20,203 nt of DNA from a virus: positions 1-20,203 of IMG/VR virus record IMGVR_UViG_3300042483_000600; one strand, written 5' to 3'. This document shows positions 3,294 to 16,783 of the stretch, piece after piece. Position numbers and translations under genes: made by a program. Under the pieces are notes generated by a model. It was not told where the DNA came from and searched no databases. It saw only the letters and a list, made by a program, of their open reading frames with translations. How positions within the stretch are numbered: position 1 is the stretch's first letter; the number at the start of each line of letters is the position of its first letter.

Positions 3294-3322
3294 AGTATAG
3301 CAGAATGGGAATTTCTGGTCAA
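3294..3322 (-). promoter_or_regulatory. Sigma70 promoter, cassette copy A (62- and 69-aa genes)
   Basis: -35 TTGACC (3317-3322), a 17-bp spacer and -10 TATACT (3294-3299) with extended TGC. It lies in the gap after the glycosyltransferase that ends at 3342, so it separates the small genes from the glycan island. Confidence 0.8.
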
Positions 3323-3341: not shown

Positions 3342-4085
3342 TTATTGCCAGTGCATTGCTACCACAGGATCCTTCAGGCATTCGTGCGGTTTGGGCCGTC
3401 CGTGAAATACCAAGATGCTGGTCTCGTCGCCTACTATGGTGGGTGCGCCGGGCTTTTGAGGTTGGCGTCTCTTAAAATCATAACCACCTTCGCTGATTTG
3501 CCAACGCCAACTTTGCAATTGCTTTTGTTCAAAATGTCTGCGTTGATTGTGATCAATCACTGCACCAATGTAGTCTTGGTCACCTTGATATCGCCGTACA
3601 GTTTGCTGGATGTCTAATTTCACAAAGTCAGCCCATACATCAGCAAACTTGGTGACATTCCACCACATCACACTGCTGTTGATTCCTGAGTGTGTGGTTT
3701 TTTGTAGATATCTAAAATCTCGTATGGTCCAAAAGTAATCAGTGCTGAGTTGTGGTATCCAACTGATGCTATTAATAATCACACAATCAAGATCAAAGTA
3801 CAACAGGTTGCCTGAGTGATGTTCAGGGTTGAACAACTGCATTTTGTACCACCAAGATCGTTTGGGTCCTGATATGCCGGGCCATTCACTCAAACAGTGT
3901 TTGATCATGTGTGGTGGCACTGATCTGTGTTCTTCAGTGTACACATGAAAACGTATGCCTTGGGGCAAGTGTCGTGTCAACATGTTGTACAGTTTGTCCA
4001 CGTACTGCCAATCGTAGCCAGTGCCGTGTATAACACAAGCACAATCAATTATGTCATCAGTGCGGGCTCTATTCTTTTTAGCCAT
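3342..4085 (-). CDS. GT-A-type glycosyltransferase (DxD)
   Basis: This 247-aa protein looks like a nucleotide-sugar-dependent glycosyltransferase. After a basic N-terminus it has a beta strand (CACVIHGTGYDW), the segment KRSWWYKMQLFNP, and YFDLDCVI with the DLD metal/nucleotide motif at 98-100. A later GDQDYIG segment and a C-terminal VFHGRPKPHE are typical of GT8/GT32-like phage and bacterial transferases. The donor and acceptor cannot be told. AAGGACT precedes the ATG at 4085. The start overlaps the 3' end of the next upstream gene by 37 nt, so the two form one unit at the left edge of the glycan island. Confidence 0.75.
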   Translation of the reverse strand: MAKKNRARTDDIIDCACVIHGTGYDWQYVDKLYNMLTRHLPQGIRFHVYTEEHRSVPPHMIKHCLSEWPGISGPKRSWWYKMQLFNPEHHSGNLLYFDLDCVIINSISWIPQLSTDYFWTIRDFRYLQKTTHSGINSSVMWWNVTKFADVWADFVKLDIQQTVRRYQGDQDYIGAVIDHNQRRHFEQKQLQSWRWQISEGGYDFKRRQPQKPGAPTIVGDETSILVFHGRPKPHECLKDPVVAMHWQ

Positions 4086-4900
4086 AGTCCTTCTCGTAGT
4101 TCTTGCACAGTGTATTCAGTATGGCATATCTTGGCCAACCATAGTTCTCTGTCTACTTCATAGGGTTGTTCAATGTCAGGATACCCAATTGCCACAGGAT
4201 ATGCCAGACTACTGTGTGCCACAATGGGCCTGCATCCTGCAATACCTGCTTGTATGCCTGGACCTGAGTTGTGATTCACAACTGCATGACAATTGAAGTG
4301 CATGTCAAAACTGTCGTAGGTGTTGGCCACAGGCCTTGCAACTTCCATTGTGGTATTAGCAGGCATGTATGGCATGCGCAGTGGGCTTCGTGGATGTGCT
4401 CGTATGCGTATGGGACGATCTGTTGAATTGCGCAGTTGTTGAACTTGCATCAATACCCACGATTCCATGCTGTCTATGCCGGCAACTTGCAAACTGTTCC
4501 GGTGCTGTGCGGCAATGATGATTTCTGGGGTTGAGTTGACTTGTGTTGCCAGGCTTATTTGCAATTTTCTAGGACGACTCATATCTAAATCGTGCTCGTG
4601 TCCATAGTAGCCATCTCGGGTGATATGGTTTACTGCCAGTTTCCAAGTCTGTCCGCGATACAACGCACCAATATCTATCACAATCACCGGTCGGTTCTGG
4701 CTGCGATAATGTTCATACACTGCTTGATTTGACTTCATTCTACCATGCCACAGTACTGACCAAATCACCGCGGCATCTGCAGTCATTGAGTTCTCTTGTG
4801 TTTGTATGCCCGCGGCTTGGCAACAATCCAAGAACGCACTCATCACAGGCTTGGAATTCAATGCACACTGGGCAGGAAAATAGGCTATGCTTTTGATCAC
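4049..4900 (-). CDS. GT-B-like glycosyltransferase, paralogue 1
   Basis: The protein belongs with three others in this window (5714-6523, 9644-10597, 10563-11552). Shared features are a strand with Arg before the C-terminal domain (RPIRIRAHPRSPLR), a small-residue loop with a glycine-rich helix (VNHNSGPGIQAGIAGCRPIVA), and a tail with W, A and E-x-R-x-G (VQELREGLWLKRI). This resembles the C-terminal nucleotide-sugar domain of KpsS/KpsC-type GT-B enzymes; the family assignment is inference. The start is uncertain. I prefer the GTG at 4900, which gives MIKSIAYFPAQ and leaves 13 bp to the divergent plus-strand gene. ATGs at 4957 (overlapping that gene) and 4843 (removing the first strand) are alternatives. 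No good Shine-Dalgarno is visible. Confidence 0.7.
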   Translation of the reverse strand: MIKSIAYFPAQCALNSKPVMSAFLDCCQAAGIQTQENSMTADAAVIWSVLWHGRMKSNQAVYEHYRSQNRPVIVIDIGALYRGQTWKLAVNHITRDGYYGHEHDLDMSRPRKLQISLATQVNSTPEIIIAAQHRNSLQVAGIDSMESWVLMQVQQLRNSTDRPIRIRAHPRSPLRMPYMPANTTMEVARPVANTYDSFDMHFNCHAVVNHNSGPGIQAGIAGCRPIVAHSSLAYPVAIGYPDIEQPYEVDRELWLAKICHTEYTVQELREGLWLKRIEPALMT

Positions 4901-4908
4901 TGTAAATA
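4898..4908 (+). promoter_or_regulatory. Possible T4-type late promoter box TGTAAATA
   Basis: TGTAAATA lies exactly 5 nt before the ATG at 4914 and differs by one base from the T4 late consensus TATAAATA. No Shine-Dalgarno is visible. It has the same spacing to the ATG as the perfect box before 13001. This is a tentative call. Confidence 0.3.
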
Positions 4909-4913
4909 CACTT

Positions 4914-5717
4914 ATGAAATACAGTGTAGTTACCACGTTTAACGCCGACGGATACAACTCTTATGGTCGTCGTATGATCCAAACTTTTTTACAAACTTGG
5001 CCAAAAGAAGTTGACTTAGTGGTATACGCCGAAAATTGCACAGTGCTTCAGTCTGCGCCAAATTTGACAATTTGTGATCTAGAACAATGCAGCAGTGAGT
5101 TGAGAGAGTTCAAAAACAAGTGGCGCGGTGTGCCCCGAGCCAATGGTGATATATCAGCAGATCCAGTGCGAAGCCGCAGAAGAGATGCTGCCAAACCATT
5201 CAAATGGGATGCAGTGCGTTTTGCTCACAAAGTATACAGCATATTCCACTGTGCAAAAAACACCACAGCAGATGTGATGATTTGGATGGATGCTGATACT
5301 ATTTGTCATAGCCCAATTACCATGCAAGACATTCAAAAATTAATTCCTGCTGACAAAGACCTGTGTTTCCTTGGAAGAAAAGGAAAATTCAGTGAGTGTG
5401 GATTGTATGCTATGAATTTGCGTTCAGAGGCTGTGCAAGTGTTCTTAAAAAGATTTCAATCCATGTATGATGACGCAGAAAATGGAATTTTCCAACAAGA
5501 TGAATGGCACGACAGTTTTATTTTTGATGTTGCTCGTCGGCACACTGTTTTGAAAGAACTTGACTGGAGCAGTCATTTAATCACAGGTGAAGGACACCCC
5601 TTGATCAATTCTGCATGGGGTGCGTACTTGGATCATCTAAAAGGTTCACGTAAAAAAACTGGACGCAGTCTTGCTACTGACTTGAAAATCAAGAGAACCG
5701 AAGCATACTGGCAATGA
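4914..5717 (+). CDS. GT-A-type glycosyltransferase (DxD), first gene of plus-strand block
   Basis: The 267-aa protein starts MKYSVVTTFNADGY, a typical first strand and loop of a nucleotide-binding GT-A fold. It has WMDADTI with a DAD motif at 126-128. Later features are a FSECGLYAMNL segment, an FQQDEWHD segment with acidic residues, and a C-terminal HLKGSRKKTGRS that I associate with a phage and bacterial family of putative glycosyltransferases. I chose the ATG at 4914 over one nine codons upstream because the fold begins there. It overlaps the next gene by ATGA. This is the first gene of the central rightward block of the island. Confidence 0.75.
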   Translation: MKYSVVTTFNADGYNSYGRRMIQTFLQTWPKEVDLVVYAENCTVLQSAPNLTICDLEQCSSELREFKNKWRGVPRANGDISADPVRSRRRDAAKPFKWDAVRFAHKVYSIFHCAKNTTADVMIWMDADTICHSPITMQDIQKLIPADKDLCFLGRKGKFSECGLYAMNLRSEAVQVFLKRFQSMYDDAENGIFQQDEWHDSFIFDVARRHTVLKELDWSSHLITGEGHPLINSAWGAYLDHLKGSRKKTGRSLATDLKIKRTEAYWQ

Positions 5718-6523
5718 ACTGGATCTACCTCAGCAAAAACGGTGATGACGAATACATTGACATGTATGCACATGGCCTAGGCAAACAGAGCACACCACTT
5801 GAGTCATGGCGCTATGAGGACAGTGTTGATCCAATCATGCTACGTGGCATAATGAAGCACAAGATCATCAAACAATGCTGGGCAGATCACAGACCATTTA
5901 GATACATGGACTCAGGATATCTGGGCAATCGTCCCAGTTTTAACAATCCTCATGGTTGGAAGATATGGCATCGCATAGTGCCCAACAACTTGCAACATGA
6001 TCAAGTAATTCCTCGTCCAAGTGATCGGTGGAATCGACTAGGGCTAGAGGTGGCCAATCGTCGTTGTGGCAACACAATATTGATTGTTGCACCCGATGAA
6101 AAGCCTTGCAAATTTTACGACATTGAATTAGATACCTGGCTGAAACAAACAATTGACACTATCAAACAACACACAGACAGGCCCATTGTTGTTCGTGATC
6201 GCAGCCGGAGTCGTACTGATAGAAAAACAAATCGTGTGGAAAAAGCCCTGGATGATGTGCATGCTGTGGTAACATTCAATTCAATTGCTGGCACAGAAGC
6301 CATACTAGCAGGTGTGCCTGTGTTTGCACTAGCACCATCAAACGCTGCTAGACCTGTGAGCAATACAGATCTAACCCGGATAGACAATCCATGGTGGCCT
6401 GATCGTGACCAGTTGTTGGCGTGGGCGTATCATTTGGCCTACGCTCAGTTTCACATAGACGAATTCCGAAACGGCACAGCTGAACGTATAATTAAACAAA
6501 CTGAGGAGATACTAAATGGTTGA
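5714..6523 (+). CDS. GT-B-like glycosyltransferase, paralogue 2
   Basis: The 269-aa protein aligns by eye along nearly its whole length with the C-terminal two thirds of the product of 10563-11552. Shared blocks are LRGI-x-K-x-K (43-50), Y-x-D-x-GY-x-GN (64-72), WHRI/YHRI (85-88), RP-x-DR (101-105), the TWLKQT block (141-146), FNSIAGTEAILAGVP (188-202) and the tail AWAYHLAYAQF with E-x-R-x-GTA-x-RI. The order suggests a two-domain GT-B-like transferase with its donor site in the C-terminal half. ATGA overlap with the previous gene and an 8-nt overlap with the FkbM gene make it part of one operon. Donor and acceptor unknown. Confidence 0.7.
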   Translation: MNWIYLSKNGDDEYIDMYAHGLGKQSTPLESWRYEDSVDPIMLRGIMKHKIIKQCWADHRPFRYMDSGYLGNRPSFNNPHGWKIWHRIVPNNLQHDQVIPRPSDRWNRLGLEVANRRCGNTILIVAPDEKPCKFYDIELDTWLKQTIDTIKQHTDRPIVVRDRSRSRTDRKTNRVEKALDDVHAVVTFNSIAGTEAILAGVPVFALAPSNAARPVSNTDLTRIDNPWWPDRDQLLAWAYHLAYAQFHIDEFRNGTAERIIKQTEEILNG

Positions 6524-7166
6524 GCATTATGGATGGAAATTCCCGGACTTTGAAACACACCTACCGCGAATGTTGAAAAAAAGTGTGGACAAAGGTCTTC
6601 CAGCCGAATATCAAGTTGCAGTGCGACGCCGAAGTATCGAACTGTGTAAAAATCGAACACTGGCACTGGATATTGGTGCCAATGTGGGCTTGTGGAGTCG
6701 TGACTTTGTTGGCAGTTTCAAACGTGTGATAGCATTTGAGCCAGTGGCCTTGTTTAGAGAATGTCTGGAACACAATGTGCAAGGCAAGAACTTTGAAGTT
6801 CAACCAATTGCTCTGGGTGATCAAGACACACAAGGAACCATGATCATCACTGAGGACAATTCGGGGCACAGCCACCTAGACCCTGCTACCATGGGCACAG
6901 GCAATGTACAAGTTGTTCGATTGGATACACTGAATTTTCATGATGTCAGTTATATCAAAATTGACTGCGAAGGATATGAGTATCGAATCTTGCAAGGCGC
7001 AGAACAAACCATTCGCCGCTGTCGACCTGTGGTGGTAATAGAACAAAAACCACACGATGCATACAGCAAGCAATACGGACAGTTTGCGGCAGTGGCGCTG
7101 TTGCAAGAATGGGGCATGATCAAACTAGATCAAGTGCGTGACGATTGGATCATGGGATGGCGATGA
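6516..7166 (+). CDS. FkbM-family SAM-dependent methyltransferase
   Basis: The 216-aa protein carries the FkbM signature. LALDIGANVGLWS (49-61) is SAM motif I, FEP (74-76) follows, VVRLDTL (133-139) comes before the key strand, and IKIDCEGYEYRIL (147-159) is the family hallmark. Members usually O-methylate sugars or small metabolites. GGAG lies just upstream of the ATG. The start overlaps the upstream gene by 8 nt, and the stop overlaps the start of a 23-codon ORF. Placed among glycosyltransferases, methylation of a transferred sugar is the simplest reading. Confidence 0.9.
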   Translation: MVEHYGWKFPDFETHLPRMLKKSVDKGLPAEYQVAVRRRSIELCKNRTLALDIGANVGLWSRDFVGSFKRVIAFEPVALFRECLEHNVQGKNFEVQPIALGDQDTQGTMIITEDNSGHSHLDPATMGTGNVQVVRLDTLNFHDVSYIKIDCEGYEYRILQGAEQTIRRCRPVVVIEQKPHDAYSKQYGQFAAVALLQEWGMIKLDQVRDDWIMGWR

Positions 7167-7234
7167 GTCCTTGTCAAGATGTACCCTATGAGTGTACCGA
7201 TAAGTATGAATTTGTAGAAACAATTTACCGATGA
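7163..7234 (+). CDS. 23-codon ORF linked by ATGA to both neighbours
   Basis: This ORF starts with an ATG overlapping the FkbM stop (ATGA at 7163) and ends with a TGA overlapping the GT25 start (ATGA at 7231). The 23 residues are polar, begin MSPCQDVPYECTDKYEF and include two Cys. It fills the only sizeable gap in this operon exactly. It may encode a microprotein, or it may only carry ribosomes across the gap to keep translation coupled. No homologue is recognised. Confidence 0.45.
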   Translation: MSPCQDVPYECTDKYEFVETIYR

Positions 7235-7983
7235 AATCATATATCATTACCATGCTGGGGCATGAACTATCAGAACAATTATCAGCCCAGTGCAGAGAAC
7301 AAGCAGCCCGGGTTGGAGTCAACGTAGAAATATTTCAAGCCATATGGGGGCGAGACTACGAACAACATCTGAAAAAACTCAACATCCGACTGGGCAAACA
7401 AAAATTAACCAAAATGACCCTGGGACACTATGGTAATTTTTTAAGCCATTATTATCTATGGCAGCAGTGTGTGCGAGATCAGGAGCCGTATCTTGTGTTG
7501 GAACACGATGGCTGGCTTATGCGACCAATTCCCAACAACATCATGAATCAATTTGATGATCTTTGCAAATTGGATTGTTTTAGCCCGTGGATGAAACAAG
7601 ATGGCGGTTATGATGTTGTGGTGGATCGAGATCAGACATCTCCGGTCACAGTCCACTCAATTCTGGATATTCCAAAAATTACTGGATACAGTGATCCGCT
7701 GAGATTTAAAAAACAAGCTGGATGTTACAGCTCAGGAGTGTATGCTTACATCATCAAACCACGTGGTGCAAAGAAGTTGATTGACCACATACGAGAAAAT
7801 GGATTCTTGGCCACTGACAATCAAGTCAACACCAATGTGATGAATGTCAAGGTATGTATACCATCAGTGGCTAGATTACATCCAGTTATGAAAAGTCGTG
7901 AGATCATTGGACAGATGTCAACATCAAGACACAGTCCAAATCCACACACAGGAAAAGGTATGGAAAATGCAGAACAAAAATAA
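7231..7983 (+). CDS. Glycosyltransferase family 25 (LPS-type)
   Basis: The 250-aa protein has the GT25 layout: a first strand YIITMLGH, IFQAIWGRDY (34-43), a LTKMTLGHYGNFLSHYYLW block (59-77) and YLVLEHDGWL (87-96) with the acidic EHD at 91-93. Later it has a GCYSSGVYAYIIKPRGAKKLID segment and DNQVNTNVM, the usual end of the catalytic domain. GT25 enzymes transfer galactose or glucose to LPS cores or protein-linked sugars. It overlaps the radical SAM gene by 17 nt at its 3' end. The exact sugar is unknown. Confidence 0.85.
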   Translation: MKSYIITMLGHELSEQLSAQCREQAARVGVNVEIFQAIWGRDYEQHLKKLNIRLGKQKLTKMTLGHYGNFLSHYYLWQQCVRDQEPYLVLEHDGWLMRPIPNNIMNQFDDLCKLDCFSPWMKQDGGYDVVVDRDQTSPVTVHSILDIPKITGYSDPLRFKKQAGCYSSGVYAYIIKPRGAKKLIDHIRENGFLATDNQVNTNVMNVKVCIPSVARLHPVMKSREIIGQMSTSRHSPNPHTGKGMENAEQK

Positions 7984-9070
7984 ACACATCGCACTGACAC
8001 AAAAATTCAGCACCTGGGGCGACAAGTTGTTGCAACACACTGATGTGTTGTACAGTATCCAGCACGATAAAAAATTCAAGCCCATCACCATCCAATTGTC
8101 ACCGTGTGAAGTTTGCAGCAGTGGATGCCCATTTTGCAGTGTGGCTGAACGTCCGCTAAAGTCATACTTGCCATTTGAAAAAATCAAACAAGTGTTGCGT
8201 GACTTCCGAACACTGGGTGCCAAAAGTGTGGAAATCACCGGTGGTGGTGAACCCCTGATTTATCGTGACAAGGACACCAAGGATGACATCAACAGCATAG
8301 TTGAGTATGCGCATGAACTGGGATACGATATTGGTATCATTACCAACACGCTGAAACTGTCAAGACTCAAACCAGAAAACTATGACAAAATTAATTGGAT
8401 ACGAGTCAGTTTGATCAAACTAGACGAAGGGTACGAGCCAGAAGATTTTGATTTCTGCGGCTTCCCTCCAGAAAAAATGGGCTTGTCATACATCATATAC
8501 GAAGGTGATACTGGCACAGGCAACAGATTAGACAAACCCTACCGGCCCACAGACGTTGACACCATTCGACGCATTGCTCGAGTGTTAGAATTGCATCCTG
8601 AACTTAAATTTGTTAGGATAGCAGGTAACTGTTTGATCAAGGGCAACAATGCGCAAATTAGAACTCAGTTCAAACAAGTGATTGATGAGATTGATACCAT
8701 GAACAAAATCTTTATCAAAGATATTGGCGAAGACGATTCTCCGTTTGAAGATGGTTGCTATGTGGGCATGATACGTCCGTATGTGGCTCCTGATCCACAC
8801 GGCAATGGAAAATATCAAGTGTACATTTGTACCAGTCATGTGCTGAACAAACAAAACTATGACTTGGATTATTCACTGTGTGATGTAGACAACATTATCC
8901 CCACATGGCAACAACTCAGTGACAACTATGCTGCCAAAGGTTATCCATACGAAGTAAAAAACAACTGCGGACAAAATTGGACTGACAGTTGCAAGTATTG
9001 TTACTACAAATTCAACAACAAAATTTTACATACTGTGGCACAAGAAATGCCAGATAGGAATTTTCCATGA
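7967..9070 (+). CDS. Radical SAM enzyme with C-terminal Cys cluster
   Basis: In this 367-aa protein the radical SAM motif is C50-x3-C54-x2-C57 (CSSGCPFC), with an extra Cys at 47. It is followed by a SAM-binding GGGEP (92-96) and strands typical of the partial TIM barrel (YDIGIITNTLKL). The C-terminus has Cys in CGQNWTDSCKYCYY, which could ligate a second iron-sulphur cluster as in SPASM/twitch proteins. The ATG at 7967 is preceded by an AGG-containing stretch; an upstream in-frame ATG at 7898 would overlap GT25 more and is less likely. It overlaps the next methyltransferase by ATGA. The reaction is unknown; sugar or nucleotide modification fits the neighbours. Confidence 0.85.
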   Translation: MQNKNKHIALTQKFSTWGDKLLQHTDVLYSIQHDKKFKPITIQLSPCEVCSSGCPFCSVAERPLKSYLPFEKIKQVLRDFRTLGAKSVEITGGGEPLIYRDKDTKDDINSIVEYAHELGYDIGIITNTLKLSRLKPENYDKINWIRVSLIKLDEGYEPEDFDFCGFPPEKMGLSYIIYEGDTGTGNRLDKPYRPTDVDTIRRIARVLELHPELKFVRIAGNCLIKGNNAQIRTQFKQVIDEIDTMNKIFIKDIGEDDSPFEDGCYVGMIRPYVAPDPHGNGKYQVYICTSHVLNKQNYDLDYSLCDVDNIIPTWQQLSDNYAAKGYPYEVKNNCGQNWTDSCKYCYYKFNNKILHTVAQEMPDRNFP

Positions 9071-9651
9071 CACAGGTATTTGATGAACAGTACTATCGTT
9101 CCAACAACTATGTTGACTATCTCAGCAAACGTGAACGATATGTAAAGACTGCAGAAGAAATACAACAAGTGTTTCATAAATTCAGTGTGATCGATCCGGA
9201 GTCGACTATCTTGGATTATGGATGTAGTCTGGGATTTTTGATCAAAGGATTTGAAAAGGTTGGATTTAAGAACGTGTGTGGTTATGATATCTCAGACTGG
9301 GCTGTGGAGCAGGCAAGAAAAAACGGTTGTAACATATTGAATCATGCGCTAGGCACATTTGATCTGGGTATTTTCTTAGACGTACTTGAGCACATGACTG
9401 ATCAGCAAATTGCCGAATTGTTTGCTGGACTCAAACTTGATAAAGTTTTGGTTAGAATACCATGTGCTGTTGCTGAACAACCTGATGAATTTTATTTAGA
9501 AGTATCACGTCGTGATGTCACACACATCAACTGCAAAACAGATCAAGACTGGATAGAGGTGTTCCGAGGCCTGGGATATCACAACTGTTTTCGTCTCAAC
9601 ATGTCTACCATATACGACTCGCCTGGGTGCTTTTGTTGTTTGTTTATTTGA
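9067..9651 (+). CDS. Class I SAM-dependent methyltransferase
   Basis: The 194-aa protein has motif I ILDYGCSLGFLIKGF (48-62), an acidic residue after the next strand (CGYDISDWAV) and a motif IV region FLDVLEHM. The N-terminal YYRSNNYVDYLSKRERYVK resembles methyltransferases found in glycan clusters. AGGA precedes the ATG and the start overlaps the radical SAM gene (ATGA). It is the last gene of the rightward block; its stop overlaps the 3' end of the convergent gene at 9644 by 8 nt, with no terminator between. Substrate not known. The C-terminus CFCCLFI is unusually Cys-rich. Confidence 0.85.
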   Translation: MTQVFDEQYYRSNNYVDYLSKRERYVKTAEEIQQVFHKFSVIDPESTILDYGCSLGFLIKGFEKVGFKNVCGYDISDWAVEQARKNGCNILNHALGTFDLGIFLDVLEHMTDQQIAELFAGLKLDKVLVRIPCAVAEQPDEFYLEVSRRDVTHINCKTDQDWIEVFRGLGYHNCFRLNMSTIYDSPGCFCCLFI

Positions 9652-10597
9652 TATAAGGCAAAAACTTTTGATAGATACGGCCTGCACGAGCATCCGCATC
9701 GCTCCAGTGTGCGGCTGCTAAGTCATAAATCCACTGTTCTCTAGCAAATGTTTCTGGAGTCTCAATTTTATTGATATCTTTGTTGGCCACTGTCCAGGCC
9801 ACACAACTGGCGTCATCTGCAAACACTGGAACACCTTCACACACTGCTGCCACGCTGGCACTACTGTTGAAGAACACTGCTGAATGTGCTCCTTGCAAGT
9901 TGTCAATCAGTCGACTTTGAGTAGGTTCGAGAATGGTAACACAATGCTTGATTTGTTTTTTATCAGTCCAGTGTTCAAAGTCTTTCATGTCGTACTGTCC
10001 TGGGTGCGGTCTAACCCAAATAGGACGAGCAGTAATTGATCTTATCTGTTGTATTTTTTCATTCAACCAAGTCACTGGGTCCAAGGTTTTCATTGCAAAA
10101 CCACCATCTCGTTGCATACCAATCAAGATGTGTCCTGTTTGATTTGACTTTGCTGGTTTTAATTGTACGCCCAATTGTCGGCTGATTTCTGACCATTTTG
10201 AGTCATCGCTGTTGCGGTTGGCATATTCAGCACGATCGTAAAATGGACCGTCAAGACTGTACCTCAAGTAACTGCCATGATTGTCAAGATACTTCCAGCA
10301 TGACGCATCTATGCACATGGTCTGAAATCCCAATCTACGTTGTTCAGCAATAATTTGTTTGCGCAACACAATGTTGCGACCACCGGTGTTTGTGGTGGCC
10401 CATCCCAGTATCACAGCCAAGCGGCTGGGAGTATACCGGTGTTCCCATTCTGTCACAACTGAGGCACCTGAGGCACGTACACCTTGAGCAAAACTTTCTA
10501 AACACTCAATTTTTCTTGTGTGTTTTCGGGCATTGGCCACACTGCTGATGTAAACTACTACATCAACCACCTTGCAATATTCTCCATGCTGTACCAT
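9644..10597 (-). CDS. GT-B-like glycosyltransferase, paralogue 3
   Basis: This 317-aa protein is related to paralogues 1, 2 and 4 mainly in its C-terminal half. It has RPIWVRPHPGQYD, then a helix-strand with FFNSSASVAAVCEGVPVFA (the small-residue loop and E-x-x-x-G-x-P), and a tail with QWIYDLAAAHWSDADARAG. The HPG segment is like the HPR of paralogue 1 and matches KpsS-type capsule transferases. The ATG at 10597 overlaps the upstream gene by 35 nt; a GTG at 10570 (just before DVVVYISSV) would begin at the first strand and is a good alternative. It converges with the methyltransferase at 9651. Confidence 0.7.
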   Translation of the reverse strand: MVQHGEYCKVVDVVVYISSVANARKHTRKIECLESFAQGVRASGASVVTEWEHRYTPSRLAVILGWATTNTGGRNIVLRKQIIAEQRRLGFQTMCIDASCWKYLDNHGSYLRYSLDGPFYDRAEYANRNSDDSKWSEISRQLGVQLKPAKSNQTGHILIGMQRDGGFAMKTLDPVTWLNEKIQQIRSITARPIWVRPHPGQYDMKDFEHWTDKKQIKHCVTILEPTQSRLIDNLQGAHSAVFFNSSASVAAVCEGVPVFADDASCVAWTVANKDINKIETPETFAREQWIYDLAAAHWSDADARAGRIYQKFLPYIK

Positions 10598-11552
10598 CGC
10601 GCATTTCTGTTTCAGTGAATTGACAATAAGCCATGTGGTTGGCCCAGGCTCTAATCTCGTCCAGTCCGGGACGTCGGATTTTTTCTATTTCTGAGATTGC
10701 GGTGCTACACAGTGAGGCTGCGGCGTTAGGGCCAAGTGTGATGGCCGGCTTTCCAAACAATATGGCTTCTCCGGCTGCAATACTGGAATAAGTTATCAAG
10801 CAATAGATGTCCTGGCTTAGAGCCATTTCTATAGTATCTGTATTGACTCTAGTACTGCGTCCTTGTTTGCGTCGAATTACAACTTCTCGATCTGTGTAAG
10901 CACTGATTTCTGCCAGTGTTTGAGCCAACCAAGTTTCAAGATCTATCTCATACAAATTCAACAATTTCTGACTGGGCGGTGCCAACAAAATTTTACTGCC
11001 AGTTGCACGGACTTTGCTGAGTTGAATTCCTGTGCGTTCAAATCTATCTCCAGGACGTTCGATAACTGGTCCAAAATTTTGAACATCATTTTTTGTGATT
11101 CTATGATAGAGTTTTTTCTTACCGTTGCCAAAATATCCTGTATCAATATAATAAAAGTCTTTGCCTCGGGCACGGCATGCATTCATTTCTTTGCGTTTGG
11201 TGATTCCTCGCAACACTATTGGGGTAGGTGTTGTTTCGGTTTTAGTCCAGGTGGTTATTTGTCCACCGCACCCACGCACAAAACTTTCTAATATGGGATC
11301 GTACATATAACCTTTTCTTTCGTATCTGTATTCGCTTTCAATGGCATGCACAGCCGATGTGTCTAATGCACGAATCTTTTCAGTCAACGCAGACAAACTC
11401 ATGCCATAGTAGTCTCCGGCTGGATCTACTCGATATTTTACAATGTCATAAACTATATCTTGAATTTCTGGCAATAACAAATCAAATTCATGTGGTGCTG
11501 GTGGCGCTGGTGGAATATATGGTGTTCTATCTTCTTGTTCCCATTCATTCAT
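10563..11552 (-). CDS. GT-B-like glycosyltransferase, paralogue 4, with N-terminal extension
   Basis: The 329-aa protein has an N-terminal extension of about 95 residues, beginning acidic and then Pro-rich (TPYIPPAPPAPHEF), that paralogue 2 lacks. The rest matches paralogue 2 block by block: LRGITKRKE, YYIDTGYFGN, YHRI, ERPGDRFERTG, TWLAQT, TYSSIAAGEAILFGKPAITLGPNAA and AWANHMAYCQF with E-x-R-x-GTA-x-RI. Both probably share fold and donor type. The start is 1 nt after the stop of the GT8-like gene, suggesting coupling; a weak AGAG lies upstream. Confidence 0.7.
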   Translation of the reverse strand: MNEWEQEDRTPYIPPAPPAPHEFDLLLPEIQDIVYDIVKYRVDPAGDYYGMSLSALTEKIRALDTSAVHAIESEYRYERKGYMYDPILESFVRGCGGQITTWTKTETTPTPIVLRGITKRKEMNACRARGKDFYYIDTGYFGNGKKKLYHRITKNDVQNFGPVIERPGDRFERTGIQLSKVRATGSKILLAPPSQKLLNLYEIDLETWLAQTLAEISAYTDREVVIRRKQGRSTRVNTDTIEMALSQDIYCLITYSSIAAGEAILFGKPAITLGPNAAASLCSTAISEIEKIRRPGLDEIRAWANHMAYCQFTETEMRDGTAWRILQGG

Positions 11553-11553
11553 G

Positions 11554-12237
11554 TTATATTCTCTGCTGACAATAGTCGGTTAATAATCTTTCCTTGTGCC
11601 AGTCTTCGGCAAAGTTGCCAGCATCAGCAAACTCATGAAAGCATGGTGTGCCCAAGGTATAGTGTACTAATTTTGCAAGTGGGTTCCACTCGTACTCAAC
11701 ATCCAGCCAGTTCCACTCTGGCGGTAGTTCACCAATGCGAGCATCTTCTAACCAGGTGAATCTATGCAGTTCAGCACCTGTTGATTTTTGCACAAATTCA
11801 GGTGTTAGTTTGCGATTGGGAAAACTGTTGCAGTTCCACAAGATCACACTGCTCCAGTTCTTGCGAGGATAGTCTTCGTTCTTGCTGCCAAGATACTTTT
11901 CAGTCATGCGTGTTTTGTAGTCGTGTTTTACAACCATGACATCGTTGAAAGGACTTTGCAGATTCCATAGTTCTACAATGTCTCCACGCAGGATCATGTC
12001 ACCATCAATGAATATAGCCCAGCCTGAGTAGTCCATCAAGTGTGGTACAAGGAAACGGCTGTAGATAAATTGATTGCTGCCGTCGGTGTGTGTTTCGTTG
12101 TAGTCTCGAAACAAATTCAAGGCCACAGGGATTATGGCCACTGGTTGACTAGCGTGTCTAATAATTGAATTCACGCATGTATGGTATGCTATGGCTTCTC
12201 GTGGATCGTATCCCACAAACACAGGAATTGGTTTCAT
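11554..12237 (-). CDS. GT8-like glycosyltransferase (DxD)
   Basis: In this 227-aa protein, IPVFVGYDPREAIAYHTCVNSI (4-25) is the nucleotide-binding first strand and helix, SRFLVPHL is a conserved linker, and AIFIDGDMILRGDI carries the DGD motif (78-80). SVILWNCN and GELPPEWNWL follow in the order seen in GT8-type transferases such as LPS galactosyltransferases. The start overlaps the stop of the nucleotidyltransferase-cupin gene as ATGA, so sugar activation and transfer may be coupled. Confidence 0.85.
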   Translation of the reverse strand: MKPIPVFVGYDPREAIAYHTCVNSIIRHASQPVAIIPVALNLFRDYNETHTDGSNQFIYSRFLVPHLMDYSGWAIFIDGDMILRGDIVELWNLQSPFNDVMVVKHDYKTRMTEKYLGSKNEDYPRKNWSSVILWNCNSFPNRKLTPEFVQKSTGAELHRFTWLEDARIGELPPEWNWLDVEYEWNPLAKLVHYTLGTPCFHEFADAGNFAEDWHKERLLTDYCQQRI

Positions 12238-13001
12238 TTTTTACGTTCTATGTCATCTTCAACACAGCGTTCACCGTATTGTATTTCAATCAACTTCAAA
12301 GGTCGGTCGGTTTCGTTACACAGTTGATGCCATTCATTTGTTTTGATAAATGTATGCTCATGCGCAGTTAATTGACATTTGATTTCTTGATCGGTTGAAG
12401 CCTCGTCTAGTGTATACACTGTGGCTTCGCCTTCGGCCACAAACCAAAATTCTGCACGTTGATCATGGCGTTGCATGCTCAAACATGTTTTAGGCATCAC
12501 AGTGAGTTCTTTGAGTTTGGTGTTGGCACCTACTTCGTGCAACACACGATAGTATCCCCAGGCACGATCAGTCTTGGGTGTTTTCCATTCAGTAAGAATC
12601 CATGAACTTGAATTCATTTTGTTTTCGCCACCCACACCAAATTCAAAGTCCACATCGTCAAATATCATTTCGGGTATGTTGTCTGCTGTGCGATCACCAC
12701 CATTGGCAAAGACAAATCGAGTTCGGGGCACAGTGTAATGTGTACGAGCAACACGTATGGCATCTATTGCTGTGTTGTCTGCGTCATCAAACTCAATCAC
12801 ACGATCCACCATGTTTAAGTTTTCGATAATGGCTCTGCGTTCGCTCATGGGCATAAACGGTCGACCTTTTTTGCGTGTGAGCCAAGCATCAGAGTTGAGC
12901 CCAACTACCAATCTATTGCCCAGTCGCTTTGCTGCTTCAAAGTAGGCAATGTGTCCGGAATGCAGTGGGTCAAACCCACCAGTGACAATTACGATTTTCA
13001 T
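12234..13001 (-). CDS. Nucleotidyltransferase-cupin fusion (sugar activation)
   Basis: Residues 1-135 are a cytidylyltransferase-like (RfaE/TagD-type) domain: TGGFDPLHSGHIAYF has the nucleotide-binding H14-x-G-H17, and GGDR lies at 101-104. Residues 145-252 form a cupin like the C-terminal domain of type II phosphomannose isomerase/ManC, with MQRHDQRAEFWFV, WHQLCNETDRPLKLIEIQYG and VEDDIER. The fusion could activate a sugar or sugar-like phosphate and isomerise or epimerise the same compound. A TATAAATA box lies 5 nt before the ATG at 13001 and no Shine-Dalgarno is visible. It is the first gene of a four-gene glycan operon that runs to 9644. Confidence 0.85.
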   Translation of the reverse strand: MKIVIVTGGFDPLHSGHIAYFEAAKRLGNRLVVGLNSDAWLTRKKGRPFMPMSERRAIIENLNMVDRVIEFDDADNTAIDAIRVARTHYTVPRTRFVFANGGDRTADNIPEMIFDDVDFEFGVGGENKMNSSSWILTEWKTPKTDRAWGYYRVLHEVGANTKLKELTVMPKTCLSMQRHDQRAEFWFVAEGEATVYTLDEASTDQEIKCQLTAHEHTFIKTNEWHQLCNETDRPLKLIEIQYGERCVEDDIERKK

Positions 13002-13006
13002 GCGGG

Positions 13007-13014
13007 TATTTATA
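13007..13014 (-). promoter_or_regulatory. T4-type late promoter box TATAAATA
   Basis: A perfect TATAAATA on the minus strand ends 5 nt before the ATG at 13001. In T4 this octamer is the gp55/gp33-dependent late promoter, with the transcript starting a few bases downstream. It lies in a 25-bp gap after the methyltransferase gene, so late transcription of the nucleotidyltransferase operon is likely. Confidence 0.6.
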
Positions 13015-13026
13015 GGCGCAGATAAC

Positions 13027-13656
13027 TCAGATCAGCTTTATTTCAACTGTGCTGCGTTTTTTACTGTAAGCTGATACCACATCCACTATTTCAAACCCGT
13101 CTATTCCCACATAATTGCCCACTGTACCTTTGGTGCGTATGTCCAATATAATACGTGTGTTTTCGTGTGAATGTCGACGCATGAGATCTATGTAAGTTTT
13201 TACAGGGTAGTGATGCCCGCAACTGAGCCATGATGTTATCACGTCAAATTTCACATGTTCAGGTAGGTTGATGTTGTTGGCATTGATCAAATGATAATTT
13301 TTTGTGCCAAGTTCTTGAAGTTTTGCATCCAAAAAATCAAAACTGTGATAAAAGTACAAAGCATCAGCAGTTGTGTTCCAATTACCATAAGACGCTGATT
13401 CGGACTTGCTGGTATTTTGTTGTTGGTCACCATCCAGCAACCATAACTCTGTGCCGTACTTTTCTCCAAACCAACGAGATTCCCAGGCAAAACCACATCC
13501 TATGTCCAGCAACTTACCAACGGGTTGAGACAAGTATGCATCAACGGTTTCAAAGTTTTCTCGTCGTTTGGCAATGTATTTGTCTGTGGTCCATTTTCTA
13601 GCCCACTGTGCTGAGTCATCAGCACCTTTGTCTGGATTGTCTATGTATGAATTCAT
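13027..13656 (-). CDS. Class I SAM-dependent methyltransferase
   Basis: This 209-aa protein has motif I LLDIGCGFAWESRWF (49-63) followed by LWLLDGD. A later HLINANNINLP is typical of the third motif, and FDVITSWLSCGHHYP of motif IV. An upstream in-frame start at 13686 is less likely: the ATG at 13656 overlaps the stop of the 40-aa peptide as ATGA. Substrate unknown. It lies at the boundary between the uvsY side and the glycan island and may belong to either. Confidence 0.85.
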   Translation of the reverse strand: MNSYIDNPDKGADDSAQWARKWTTDKYIAKRRENFETVDAYLSQPVGKLLDIGCGFAWESRWFGEKYGTELWLLDGDQQQNTSKSESASYGNWNTTADALYFYHSFDFLDAKLQELGTKNYHLINANNINLPEHVKFDVITSWLSCGHHYPVKTYIDLMRRHSHENTRIILDIRTKGTVGNYVGIDGFEIVDVVSAYSKKRSTVEIKLI

Positions 13657-13776: not shown

Positions 13777-14229
13777 TTAGACTGTGATGTCTTCCATGCC
13801 TGCGGTGCGCAGGCGTACCACGTGACCCATTTGCCACTGCTTGGTGTCCAGGCCCTTCATGATGCCCAACCACCGGTTGCGTAGCAATGCTACTTCATTG
13901 ATGATGGTTTCAAAGTCCACAACTTCTTCTTCGCCATCCACATACTTTTCAGCATCACGTGCTGTGAGCGCACGGGCATAGCCTTCCAAATACTTCTTGA
14001 AGTGCCGGGTTCGAATTTTGCGCAGTTGAATATTGAGAAAGTTCAACACAGCTTCAATCTCTTGTAGCTGGTTGAATCTGTGTTCGGTTATACCTGGTAG
14101 TGCAGTGATATTCTTTTCTACCAGTCCACCAATCTTGCAGTCACGCTTAGCATCCGTGAGTTCTGACTCAAAGTGTGCAATGAAGTCAGGGATGTTACCA
14201 AGGTCTGCTACAACTCGACTATACCACAT
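13777..14229 (-). CDS. uvsY: UvsY-like recombination mediator (tentative)
   Basis: The 150-aa protein is helical and charged, with RFNQLQEIEAVLNFLNIQL, RKIRTRHFKKYLEGYARALTARDAEKYV and a C-terminal MKGLDTKQWQMGHVVRLR. The length, the basic central K/R-x-YL segment and the C-terminal helix resemble T4 UvsY, which loads UvsX onto gp32-covered single-stranded DNA. The assignment rests on this pattern and on the neighbouring uvsX, gp32 and uvsW; direct similarity to T4 UvsY is low. The start is supported by AAAGGA in the 3' end of the radical SAM gene, which it overlaps by 11 nt. Confidence 0.55.
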   Translation of the reverse strand: MWYSRVVADLGNIPDFIAHFESELTDAKRDCKIGGLVEKNITALPGITEHRFNQLQEIEAVLNFLNIQLRKIRTRHFKKYLEGYARALTARDAEKYVDGEEEVVDFETIINEVALLRNRWLGIMKGLDTKQWQMGHVVRLRTAGMEDITV

Positions 14230-15463
14230 GTTCTAATTCCTTTGCCAACCAAGGAAAAGTGTTGAGCCAATCAGATCCTCTTCGCCTATCATTTTCATCA
14301 AGAAAAGTTTTTAATTTTAACATTTCAACTGGGTTTGGCTGTGATTGTCTATAGTTAGATGCTATTCCCTGCATGTAAGTCTTTGCATTTAAATCGTCAT
14401 TCCTATTTTCAGACATGGCTAACAAAATGTTATTAAAATCTTTATCAAATACTTGATTGCCTAATATATTAGGAATCAGATAACTAGGTTCAGTCACTGC
14501 TTGAAAGTAATGTCCTACTTTGTGTTTTAGTCTCCATACTTTTAGTTTTTCAATTAACTCAGGCATGGTTTTGAGCGTGAGCAAGGTAATGGTTGACTGT
14601 ATGTTAAGAGTCAACCAGGGTTCCTGTAACAATCTTTCAAAATTCAAAATCCATTTATCTATGCTTATTCCATACCTGGCATATTCTTGTTCTGCACCAA
14701 CACAGTCAATGCTACACAATAATTCAACACGTTTGAGTTTCCGAACCTTGACTAAATTTTTAAATCGTTGTACTATTCGGTCTAGTTTTTCTGGAATAAT
14801 CATTAAATTGGTTATCACGACGAATTCCAAATTGGGATGATTGGTTGATTCAAAATAATCCAAACAAGTTTCAAACTCAGGTTGATAAAATCCTTCGCCA
14901 CCGGCCAGGTGAAATCTTACCAGTCCTGAAGAGTGGTTATGCATCCATATCCAAAATTGTTTGAGCATTTCTTTGTAATTTACATCAATGTCGACACTTT
15001 TAAGTACCATACCATTTTTTTCAAATGTTCCAAACTTTTTGTATTCTTGATTTATTTTTGAACTGTATTCTGGGCGACAATATACGCAAGCTAAATTGCA
15101 TTGATTGTTGAAAAAAACTTCAAGGATTGTTGGTTGCACTATCACAGCCGTGGAATCTGATTCTAATTCAATAGGAGATTGATTAGGCATGGTAAGATGT
15201 AATATCCTGTCACTCGATCCTCCTGATTCCTCTATTTTACGGCAATAGCCGCAACTTTGTTCCGGCCAAAGTCCCTGGAGCATTCGTTGTCGTTCTTGTT
15301 GTTTCTTTTCAGTGTTATGAAAAGTATCAAATGTCTCTGGTGTTATTTTTCCGTCACCAGTTCGATGACAACTAGCAGTATCTCCAGTATAAAGATAAAG
15401 ACTACTCCAATTCCATTTCAACTGACACGCTGTGGCAGTTTTAATAGGAAAATATTTTTTCAT
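14219..15463 (-). CDS. Radical SAM protein (twitch type), AT-rich
   Basis: This 414-aa protein has its radical SAM motif at C122-x3-C126-x2-C129 (CNLACVYC), a GGEG SAM-binding loop at 188-191 and barrel strands such as FVVITNLMII and LLCSIDCVG. The N-terminal 80 residues hold several Cys (C13, C32, C71, C74) and a WSSLYLYTGD block, as in phage and bacterial twitch radical SAM proteins. Its base composition is clearly more AT-rich than uvsX or the uvsY-like gene on either side, which suggests separate acquisition. It overlaps the acidic protein gene by 1 nt (TAATG) and the uvsY-like gene by 11 nt. Substrate unknown; a peptide, nucleotide or sugar is possible. Confidence 0.85.
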   Translation of the reverse strand: MKKYFPIKTATACQLKWNWSSLYLYTGDTASCHRTGDGKITPETFDTFHNTEKKQQERQRMLQGLWPEQSCGYCRKIEESGGSSDRILHLTMPNQSPIELESDSTAVIVQPTILEVFFNNQCNLACVYCRPEYSSKINQEYKKFGTFEKNGMVLKSVDIDVNYKEMLKQFWIWMHNHSSGLVRFHLAGGEGFYQPEFETCLDYFESTNHPNLEFVVITNLMIIPEKLDRIVQRFKNLVKVRKLKRVELLCSIDCVGAEQEYARYGISIDKWILNFERLLQEPWLTLNIQSTITLLTLKTMPELIEKLKVWRLKHKVGHYFQAVTEPSYLIPNILGNQVFDKDFNNILLAMSENRNDDLNAKTYMQGIASNYRQSQPNPVEMLKLKTFLDENDRRRGSDWLNTFPWLAKELEHVV

Positions 15464-15726
15464 TAATAGTCATCTTCTTGATTGTAGTTGTCCTCGTCAT
15501 CAAACTCTTCTTCTTCCTCTTCCGCATAGTCCTTGTCATTGTCCAGGTATGCAGTTAGAGCTTTTTTGATGTCTGAATCGCCTTTGAAGGCTTCCCGAAT
15601 TTCTTCAACGTCGTGGTCATGATCAATCAGGATAGACACAATGCTTTCAGCAGCATCTATACGATCTACCACGTTGACATATCTTTTTAGTTCGCCCCAA
15701 ATTTCGCTTGCTACTTCTGCTGACAT
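15463..15726 (-). CDS. Small acidic protein next to uvsX
   Basis: In this 87-aa protein the first 60 residues look helical (VASEIWGELKRYVNVVDRID) and the rest is a Glu/Asp tail (YAEEEEEEFDDEDNYNQEDDY). GGAGG precedes the ATG at 15726, in the last codons of uvsX, whose stop is 1 nt away. The acidic tail could mimic DNA or interact with a basic replication protein, much as the gp32 C-terminus does; that is inference. It is co-transcribed with uvsX. Confidence 0.8.
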   Translation of the reverse strand: MSAEVASEIWGELKRYVNVVDRIDAAESIVSILIDHDHDVEEIREAFKGDSDIKKALTAYLDNDKDYAEEEEEEFDDEDNYNQEDDY

Positions 15727-15727
15727 T

Positions 15728-16783
15728 TTATTCCTCCGTTGCGTCGGCTGTACTTACCTCAGTTTTGATGTTCTTGAAGTCAATCATGACCTTGTCCAAG
15801 CAACCATCATCATTCTTTTCCCATGCTTTGCGGAACTTCTTGATAACTTCGCCCTCGCTGGTGGTAAACACCAAGCTGTTGCCTTCACGCTTGAGCATCT
15901 CTTTTTTCTCAATCAAGTCCACTAGGCCACTGTAAGGACTCATACCTGTTGTGTAAGGAATCTTGACCTGCACACCTTCAAACGGTTTGGCATAGCGTGT
16001 TTTCATAACTTTACAGCCTGCACGAATGCCATTGACGTCACTCACCTTGTTGCCGTCCTCGTCCTCTTTCAGCTTCATCTTCTTCATGGCCACCACAATT
16101 GAACTGGCGTAAATGAAACCTTGGCCGCCGGAGATCTTGTCATCAGGATCAAACATGTCCTGACTTGCGTATGTGTGATTGGTACAAACCAAGCCCACGT
16201 TGTAACTACCAAACATGTTCACACAGTTGCGCACCAAGGCAGTGAGCGCTTTGGGTTTACGACCCAGATCACCCTTCATTTCACCTGCGTCAAACTGGTT
16301 GACGTCAGTAGGAGTCAACAACATGCCCAAACTGTCAATAACAAACATGACTTTGGGACGTTCGCCTTCGGGCAATGCCTTGTAGTCGCTCATGAATGTA
16401 CTAATGGTCTTTGCCACATCGTCAATCATGGCCATACTCAACTTCAGCAGTTTGCTTTCACTTGTGTCTACACCCAAGGCTTTGAGCCAGTCTTCGTCTA
16501 GTGCGTTTTCACTGTCAATCAACACCACAAAGATACCTTGTTCTTGTGCGTTCTTCACAATGTTGCCTGAACAAATGTAACTCTTGCCTGCGCCCGAGTC
16601 GCCAGCAAACACTGTGACCTTACCTAGCGGAATGCCACGATTGAAGTCTCCCGAGATCAAATAGTTCAATGCATAGTTGCCTGTGCTGATCCAGTCTGTG
16701 GGATCGTTAAAGCCGATGCTGAGCCCATCAATGCTTTTTGTGATTTCCTTGCGGAACTTGCTTACGTCAAATGGTTTTCCCAT
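15728..16783 (-). CDS. uvsX: UvsX/RecA-type recombinase
   Basis: The 351-aa protein is a strand-exchange recombinase of the T4 UvsX type. It has Walker A GDSGAGKS (61-68), Walker B VMFVIDSLG (145-153), a region matching the DNA-binding loops, and TNHTY (201-205). The strand FVVLIDSENAL (85-95) is typical of the RecA core. UvsX coats single-stranded DNA and performs homologous pairing in recombination-dependent replication. AAAGGAC in the 9-nt gap supports the ATG at 16783. It is followed closely by the acidic gene and preceded by an AT-rich gene, so the unit is probably a single transcript from gp32. Confidence 0.9.
   Translation of the reverse strand: MGKPFDVSKFRKEITKSIDGLSIGFNDPTDWISTGNYALNYLISGDFNRGIPLGKVTVFAGDSGAGKSYICSGNIVKNAQEQGIFVVLIDSENALDEDWLKALGVDTSESKLLKLSMAMIDDVAKTISTFMSDYKALPEGERPKVMFVIDSLGMLLTPTDVNQFDAGEMKGDLGRKPKALTALVRNCVNMFGSYNVGLVCTNHTYASQDMFDPDDKISGGQGFIYASSIVVAMKKMKLKEDEDGNKVSDVNGIRAGCKVMKTRYAKPFEGVQVKIPYTTGMSPYSGLVDLIEKKEMLKREGNSLVFTTSEGEVIKKFRKAWEKNDDGCLDKVMIDFKNIKTEVSTADATEE

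Follow-up and report, generated by a model that had tools for sequence, protein, structure and literature searches.

Phage glycosyltransferase islands are often labelled 'LPS modification' (LPS, lipopolysaccharide) without evidence on timing or target. When such an island acts, and on what, is the question raised here by a DNA stretch of 20,203 bp (the window). The window is the complete IMG/VR record IMGVR_UViG_3300042483_000600 of a freshwater T4-like phage, and its ends bound the evidence from this phage. Thirteen intact open reading frames (ORFs) for sugar activation, glycosyl transfer, methylation and radical SAM chemistry fill positions 3342–13656. The probable role of this cassette is to make a methylated sugar chain in the late phase of infection. 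Phage glycan-assembly islands are already known as a kind. The late-promoter link, the two-orientation hotspot and a nucleophile-less family with the fold of 3-deoxy-D-manno-oct-2-ulosonic acid (Kdo) transferases were not found described in the literature searched.

Late-promoter motif and exchange of the island

The gene families of the island were assigned with Pfam, PHROGs and NCBIfam profiles. GTa1 and GTb1 are on the minus strand, followed by GTa2, GTb2, FkbM, GT25, rSAM1 and MT2 on the plus strand, and by GTb3, GTb4, GT8, NTcup and MT3 on the minus strand. The features of the island are as follows.

3342–4085, minus: GTa1, GT-A-like glycosyltransferase (phrog_1962, E=2.5e-21)
4049–4843, minus: GTb1, GT-B, Kdo-transferase-like family, RxHP motif, QxxxS replacing QxxxD (paralogy and motif alignment)
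4903–4908, plus: TAAATA, late-promoter-like core, 5 nt ahead of the GTa2 ATG (motif search of upstreams)
4914–5717, plus: GTa2, GT-A-like glycosyltransferase, opens the plus-strand operon (weak GT2 match, below the Pfam cut-off)
5714–6523, plus: GTb2, GT-B, Kdo-transferase-like family, without HP motif (paralogy, motifs, predicted structure with Z 11.9 to KpsC)
6516–7166, plus: FkbM-family methyltransferase (PF05050, 3.7e-20)
7231–7983, plus: GT25-family glycosyltransferase (PF01755, 2.9e-15)
7967–9070, plus: rSAM1, radical SAM enzyme with extra C-terminal cysteines, CX7CX2C (PF04055, 1.1e-9)
9067–9651, plus: MT2, class I methyltransferase (PF13489, 7.5e-9)
9644–10597, minus: GTb3, GT-B, Kdo-transferase-like family, RxHP motif, without the catalytic Asp (predicted structure with Z 14.6 to KpsC, motifs)
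10563–11552, minus: GTb4, GT-B, paralogue of GTb2, without HP motif (paralogy, motif alignment)
11554–12237, minus: GT8-family glycosyltransferase, DGD motif (PF01501, 2.9e-6)
12234–13001, minus: NTcup, fusion of an HldE/RfaE-domain-II-type nucleotidyltransferase and a mannose-6-P-isomerase-type cupin, first gene past the late box (Pfam, NCBIfam)
13007–13014, minus: TATAAATA, late-promoter-like box, 5 nt ahead of the NTcup ATG (motif search of upstreams)
13027–13656, minus: MT3, class I methyltransferase, start ATG at 13656 (PF13489, 8.7e-6, just below the cut-off)

A first-pass annotation had described a 13-gene island here, and all ORFs are intact where it had placed them. Its enzyme tally was also borne out, with four GT-A-like proteins (GTa1, GTa2, GT25 and GT8), four GT-B-like paralogues, three methyltransferases (FkbM, MT2 and MT3), one radical SAM enzyme and one nucleotidyltransferase-cupin fusion.

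T4 late genes rely on an 8-bp TATA box whose first base is at −13, roughly one helical turn ahead of the start; they lack a −35 element (PMC2988020). Motifs were counted over distinct 25-nt upstreams, and the expectation was taken from shuffled upstreams that preserved base content only. TAAATA was present in 76 of 84 distinct NTcup upstreams (2.8 expected), 74 times at exactly 5 nt before the ATG, and in 28 of 61 distinct GTa2 upstreams (1.6 expected). None of the 469 upstreams of uvsX (120), uvsY (136), the acidic-protein gene (121), the AAA gene (43) and ssb (49) contained it. In G002, a relative of 349 kb, ATAAATA (the longer motif) is found ahead of genes for a tail sheath, a baseplate wedge protein, a head-tail adaptor and a virion structural protein, which supports the motif as the late promoter of this lineage. 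Judged by its upstreams, the island appears to be expressed late, together with the virion genes. The promoter evidence links one large island family to virion genes, and an open guess becomes a testable claim. The 5-nt gap, read with the T4 geometry, would let transcription begin at the first base of the start codon and make the NTcup mRNA leaderless.

Viral contigs were scanned with UvsX, AAA, uvsY, rSAM1 and GT8, which gave 311 loci. There were 53 distinct uvsY–AAA intervals, 43 longer than 5 kb and 10 of 0.2–3.0 kb. The 10 small intervals contained nothing recognised, a methyltransferase (c20) alone, c20 with NTcup, or c20 with NTcup and GT8. GTa1 was present in all 43 large islands, GT8, GTb1 and a GTb3-like gene in 42 each, NTcup in 38, GTa2 in 36, GTb2 in 33, FkbM in 31 and GTb4 in 24; rSAM1 and MT2 were found in only 3. 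The centre of the island is variable, and relatives have other methyltransferases or glycosyltransferases instead of the rSAM1-MT2-GT25 trio. The uvsY–AAA interval is a hotspot in the relatives. Their empty or minimal intervals support the earlier proposal of a glycan-assembly island within a T4-like recombination region. A gene order shared by the whole phage group had been named as a refutation; the order is common and not universal, and the island reading stands.

The hotspot exists in two orientations. After dereplication, GT8 pointed the same way as the flanks in 77 contigs (co-oriented) and the other way in 31 (opposed). In the window, the block 4914–9651 is on the plus strand, opposite to its surroundings. 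This had been called a built-in inversion: the strand switch is real, but two convergent operons are the usual layout (orientation A), not a local accident, and about 30% of the relatives are reversed. In the opposed form, for example in L122, L104 and L194, c20 often stays by uvsY and GTa1 by AAA. Since both keep their flank neighbours, the block between them is reversed. GTa1 keeps its place beside AAA whichever way the island lies. Each of the two convergent operons of the co-oriented form has a late-type box of its own. The NTcup box is also kept in the reversed form (TAAATA in 50/54 and 16/16 upstreams of the two orientations), and this retention would permit the operon to function either way round.

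On the AAA tree, the opposed label required 13 changes, at least 10 of them forced by well supported branches. The nearest neighbours of the window include both forms: L251 is in orientation A (AAA 99%) and L271 in orientation B (AAA 98%, GT8 94%). The scattered changes, together with both forms among the nearest neighbours, indicate that the island was exchanged or flipped independently of the backbone. No long inverted repeats able to flip the block were found; the island region has only three pairs of 16–18 nt. The island is an exchangeable cassette and is not part of the backbone in all relatives. The uvsY–AAA site, which can be empty or hold a minimal or a full island, in two orientations, offers a natural series for the study of how phages exchange sugar chemistry.

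In some relatives, small proteins without family matches, c82 and c56 (L122:8801-9355 and L079:18888-19577), are encoded between GTa1 and AAA. The late motif ATAAATA was present in 6/8 copies of c56. The products of c82 and c56 may be components of the virion and are candidate acceptors.

Predicted fold and motifs of the island enzymes

GTb1–4 matched no Pfam family above the cut-off, and they are true paralogues (GTb2/GTb4, E=9e-54; GTb2/GTb3, 8e-13; GTb1/GTb3, 5e-8). The AlphaFold model of GTb3 (pLDDT 90.9) had its best matches in KpsC, WbbB and KrkA, which are retaining beta-Kdo transferases (Foldseek E 6e-8). Against KpsC, it reached Z 14.6 with a root-mean-square deviation (rmsd) of 3.9 over 242 residues. 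All 15 top matches were Kdo transferases, and the next other fold had Z 10.8. The GTb2 model (pLDDT 93.3) reached Z 11.9 to KpsC, with an rmsd of 4.8 over 230 and the next other fold at 8.8. By sequence, one of the two GTb family profiles matched WbbB at E=3e-4, and the other only at E ~1. GTb2 and GTb3 are thus predicted, from these models, to share the fold arrangement of Kdo transferases.

In retaining Kdo transferases, (K/R)xHP serves in cytidine monophosphate (CMP) binding, and QxxxD carries the nucleophilic Asp, which is absolutely conserved (PMC12887879, PMC9587256). The (K/R)xHP motif was found in 107/107 homologues of GTb1 and 86/86 of GTb3, compared with 0/71 of GTb4 and 1/76 of GTb2. 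The QxxxD site was placed by sequence order and motif. At this site, GTb1 has QxxxS, with Q and S in 108/108 aligned sequences including that of the window, and GTb3 has QRxxG in 87/87. In GTb2 and GTb4, the equivalent Q was absent at the aligned place. Compared with KpsC (GT107), WbbB (GT99) and KrkA (GT140), the likeness lies in the predicted fold of GTb2 and GTb3 and in the (K/R)xHP of GTb1 and GTb3. The difference is that GTb1 and GTb3 lack the Asp of QxxxD, and GTb2 and GTb4 have neither motif. The fold match together with the missing nucleophile makes GTb1–4 relatives of Kdo transferases by fold, not members by mechanism. A CMP-sugar is a reasonable candidate donor for GTb1 and GTb3, and its identity as Kdo is only putative. 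In this family, a known fold and a CMP-binding motif occur without the defining catalytic residue, which bears on the evolution of retaining versus inverting chemistry. A KdsA/KdsB pair beside a GT8 homologue in S-SCSM2R was considered as evidence on the GTb donor and dropped, as no GTb homologue was found in that region.

GT8 retains the DGD metal motif. The best match of NTcup is domain II of HldE, which forms ADP-heptose (5.5e-21), yet the score is below the equivalog cut-off. For rSAM1, 20 viral loci at 93–98% identity were followed by a single match at 24%, and a pattern scan of 84,980 species, one genome each, found no relative in cells. Within the viral and cellular scans made, rSAM1 appears in this phage group only. 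The high protein identity without intermediates suggested a recent horizontal sweep. This was rejected, as the third-codon-position identity in distant carriers was 0.62–0.64, against 0.55–0.57 for uvsX, and strong purifying selection explains the protein identity better. Assignment of rSAM1 as viperin or MoaA was also rejected, with scores far below the cut-offs.

The proposed glycan and its likely acceptor

Homologous clusters are found elsewhere. Caulobacter phage C1 has two GTb homologues with GT8 and FkbM homologues downstream of its tail-fibre genes, and podovirus ctDrO704 has a GT8/FkbM pair within the capsid region. Both contexts point to a virion target, without proving it. GTa2 relatives occur in Pelagibacter phage Mosig and podovirus ct7QV12. 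The cluster of Mosig EXVC030M (MT647606, ~124.8–130.7 kb) resembles the island: this T4-like phage, too, groups homologues of GTa2, GT8 and GTb (two of the latter) with methyltransferase genes in a strand-coherent arrangement. It differs in its position beside nrdA/nrdB/ruvC instead of uvsY, includes a sulfotransferase gene and is partly annotated as hypothetical; the genome announcement does not mention the glycosyl genes. In podovirus ct7QV12 (L166, MW202713), a TibC-annotated glycosyltransferase gene, GTa2 and GTb homologues, a methyltransferase gene and a gene for a pyridoxal phosphate-dependent enzyme adjoin terminase and head-tail joining genes.

Cyanophage clusters of the P-SSM2 type are polymorphic and combine paralogous glycosyltransferases with a HIGH-type nucleotidyltransferase and a cupin, in jumbo and T4-like phages (PMC7824862). 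The window island shares this combination. Unlike the complete cyanophage clusters, it has no NAD-dependent epimerase/dehydratase genes (none among the Pfam matches of the 13 island proteins). It also differs in its fixed uvsY–AAA hotspot, its late-promoter association and its Kdo-fold glycosyltransferases as the main paralogue set. The Moraphages (PMC12619734) were considered as the same lineage and dropped, since Bacteroidota hosts are predicted there and uvsY is not mentioned.

Bacterial GT8 relatives are 57–70% identical and come mainly from Beta- and Alphaproteobacteria. One protein family neighbours 32/80 of these loci, and the five members scanned all have TPR repeats. Two of these neighbours, with their ends read, showed a glycosyltransferase-like signature by eye; a transferase domain was not confirmed by Pfam. 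TPR-bearing glycosyltransferases such as OGT modify proteins. Two SAR116 single-cell contigs have related loci. In L383, a TPR protein and GT8, GTa2, GTb and FkbM homologues lie together near FtsK-like and LolA-like genes; L415 has GT8, GTa2 and GTb homologues. Both loci may be cellular counterparts of the phage island.

We infer the chemistry of each step, the step order and the acceptor as follows. NTcup would activate a phospho-sugar. Soluble glycosyltransferases of two folds would assemble a short oligosaccharide in the cytoplasm, GTb1 and GTb3 probably with CMP-activated sugars. The methyltransferases would modify the sugar, as would the rSAM1-MT2-GT25 trio in the window variant. A virion protein would be the most likely acceptor of the glycan, because of the late-type switch-on, the lack of encoded membrane proteins and the failure to find the PF00303 family (thymidylate synthase/dCMP hydroxymethylase superfamily), whose enzymes provide a pyrimidine that can be glycosylated, in these lineages. 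No transmembrane-like segments were found, as none of the island proteins contains a 19-residue segment with a hydropathy higher than 1.6. The island thus does not encode a lipid-linked O-antigen export pathway, and soluble LPS-core enzymes would still be compatible. Glycans on capsid and tail tube subunits of mycobacteriophages (Freeman et al. 2023, as cited in PMC12619734) are a precedent for the proposed target, but those phages are unrelated.

Late glycosylation of a virion protein is the reading we favour, and the chances for and against it seem to us about even. Several points weigh against it. Within the window, no structural gene adjoins the island, and no acceptor was identified. The promoter counts were drawn from related sequences and are hence not fully independent. 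The late timing equally fits a host-surface effect at the end of infection, and soluble cytoplasmic enzymes also add LPS core sugars. The TPR partners in bacteria hint at protein glycosylation without proving it. Related jumbo-phage clusters have been interpreted as O-antigen modification (PMC7824862).

The main rival is that the cassette alters host LPS or capsule, for superinfection exclusion or a pre-lysis surface change, as proposed for the cyanophage clusters. PMC7824862 assigns polymorphic clusters with paralogous glycosyltransferases, HIGH-type nucleotidyltransferases and cupins to surface polysaccharide. The HldE-type domain, the GT25 family and the Kdo-transferase fold are all associated with LPS or capsule, and the neighbours of the bacterial GT8 relatives include NeuB (3 loci) and KpsF-type SIS/CBS proteins (4 loci). 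However, late-promoter control would act after most exclusion should, flippases, polytopic transferases or other membrane proteins are not encoded in the island, and the epimerase/dehydratase genes of the complete cyanophage clusters are missing. We regard a host-surface target as possible but rather unlikely. A diffusible sugar-containing small molecule as the product, or modification of another cytoplasmic target during infection, is improbable. Secondary-metabolite clusters, too, can contain a radical SAM enzyme, several methyltransferases and a nucleotidyltransferase, and such a product was proposed for another cyanophage cluster (PMC7824862). Yet the island encodes eight glycosyltransferases but lacks a scaffold synthase, a ligase and an exporter, and its promoters are of the late type.

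The first-pass annotation had left host LPS, virion protein and modified DNA as targets. Glycosylation of phage DNA at hypermodified bases, like the T4 glucosylation of hydroxymethylcytosine, would suit a T4-like phage with the island among its recombination genes. PF00303 was found in 0/22 related records, including island-bearing records of 349, 213 and 210 kb, although records may be fragments; the T4 route to glycosylated DNA is therefore unlikely. The T4 alpha/beta-gt DNA glucosyltransferase families were likewise absent among the Pfam matches of the 13 island proteins, and the promoter motif is late-type. We consider a DNA target very improbable, and of the three proposed targets a virion protein is favoured.

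A broader reading joins these results. GTb1/GTb3 and GTb2/GTb4 would be new glycosyltransferase families with the Kdo-transferase fold minus its covalent Asp nucleophile, two of them still using a CMP-sugar. They would belong to a self-contained cassette, exchanged in either orientation at one site, whose late promoters start the first mRNA at its ATG and which decorates virion proteins with a lineage-specific, radical-SAM-modified methylated sugar. We advance it tentatively, as a whole that is unlikely to hold in every part.

Genes flanking the island

The assigned genes on the two sides of the island are as follows.

3–452, minus: uvsW helicase, first 150 aa, cut off by the contig end, left flank (by-eye alignment with c4 of relatives)
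1499–2527, minus: AAA ATPase, phrog_1250, left flank (E=6e-84)
13777–14229, minus: uvsY, right flank (phrog_231, 1.2e-12)
15728–16783, minus: UvsX recombinase, right flank (phrog_97, 3.4e-67)

By eye, the 150-aa uvsW N-terminus of the window can be aligned with c4, a uvsW-like helicase gene that neighbours AAA in relatives. The island had been placed between uvsY and uvsW. It does adjoin uvsY, but it is separated from uvsW by three small ORFs, the AAA ATPase and one further gene without an assigned function.

The right flank contains uvsY, a twitch-domain radical SAM gene, an acidic-protein gene, UvsX and a gp32-like single-stranded DNA-binding protein. The twitch-domain gene (14219-15463; NF033640, 236 bits, above the cut-off) lies between uvsY and the acidic-protein gene, and is present in some relatives and missing in others. 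Further divergent copies (20–28%) were found in relatives near terminase, ssb and uvsX genes. The small acidic protein (15463-15726), encoded between uvsX and uvsY, has a Glu/Asp-rich C-terminal tail and is kept in most relatives.

To the left of the island, a 49–62 nt repeat occurs in three copies ahead of the small ORFs (2571-2599, 2802-2830 and 3294-3322, minus strand). The copies contain sigma-70-like promoters (TTGACC-17-TATAAT or TATACT), in which TG precedes the second box. By their motifs these promoters probably act early, in contrast to the late-type boxes of the island.

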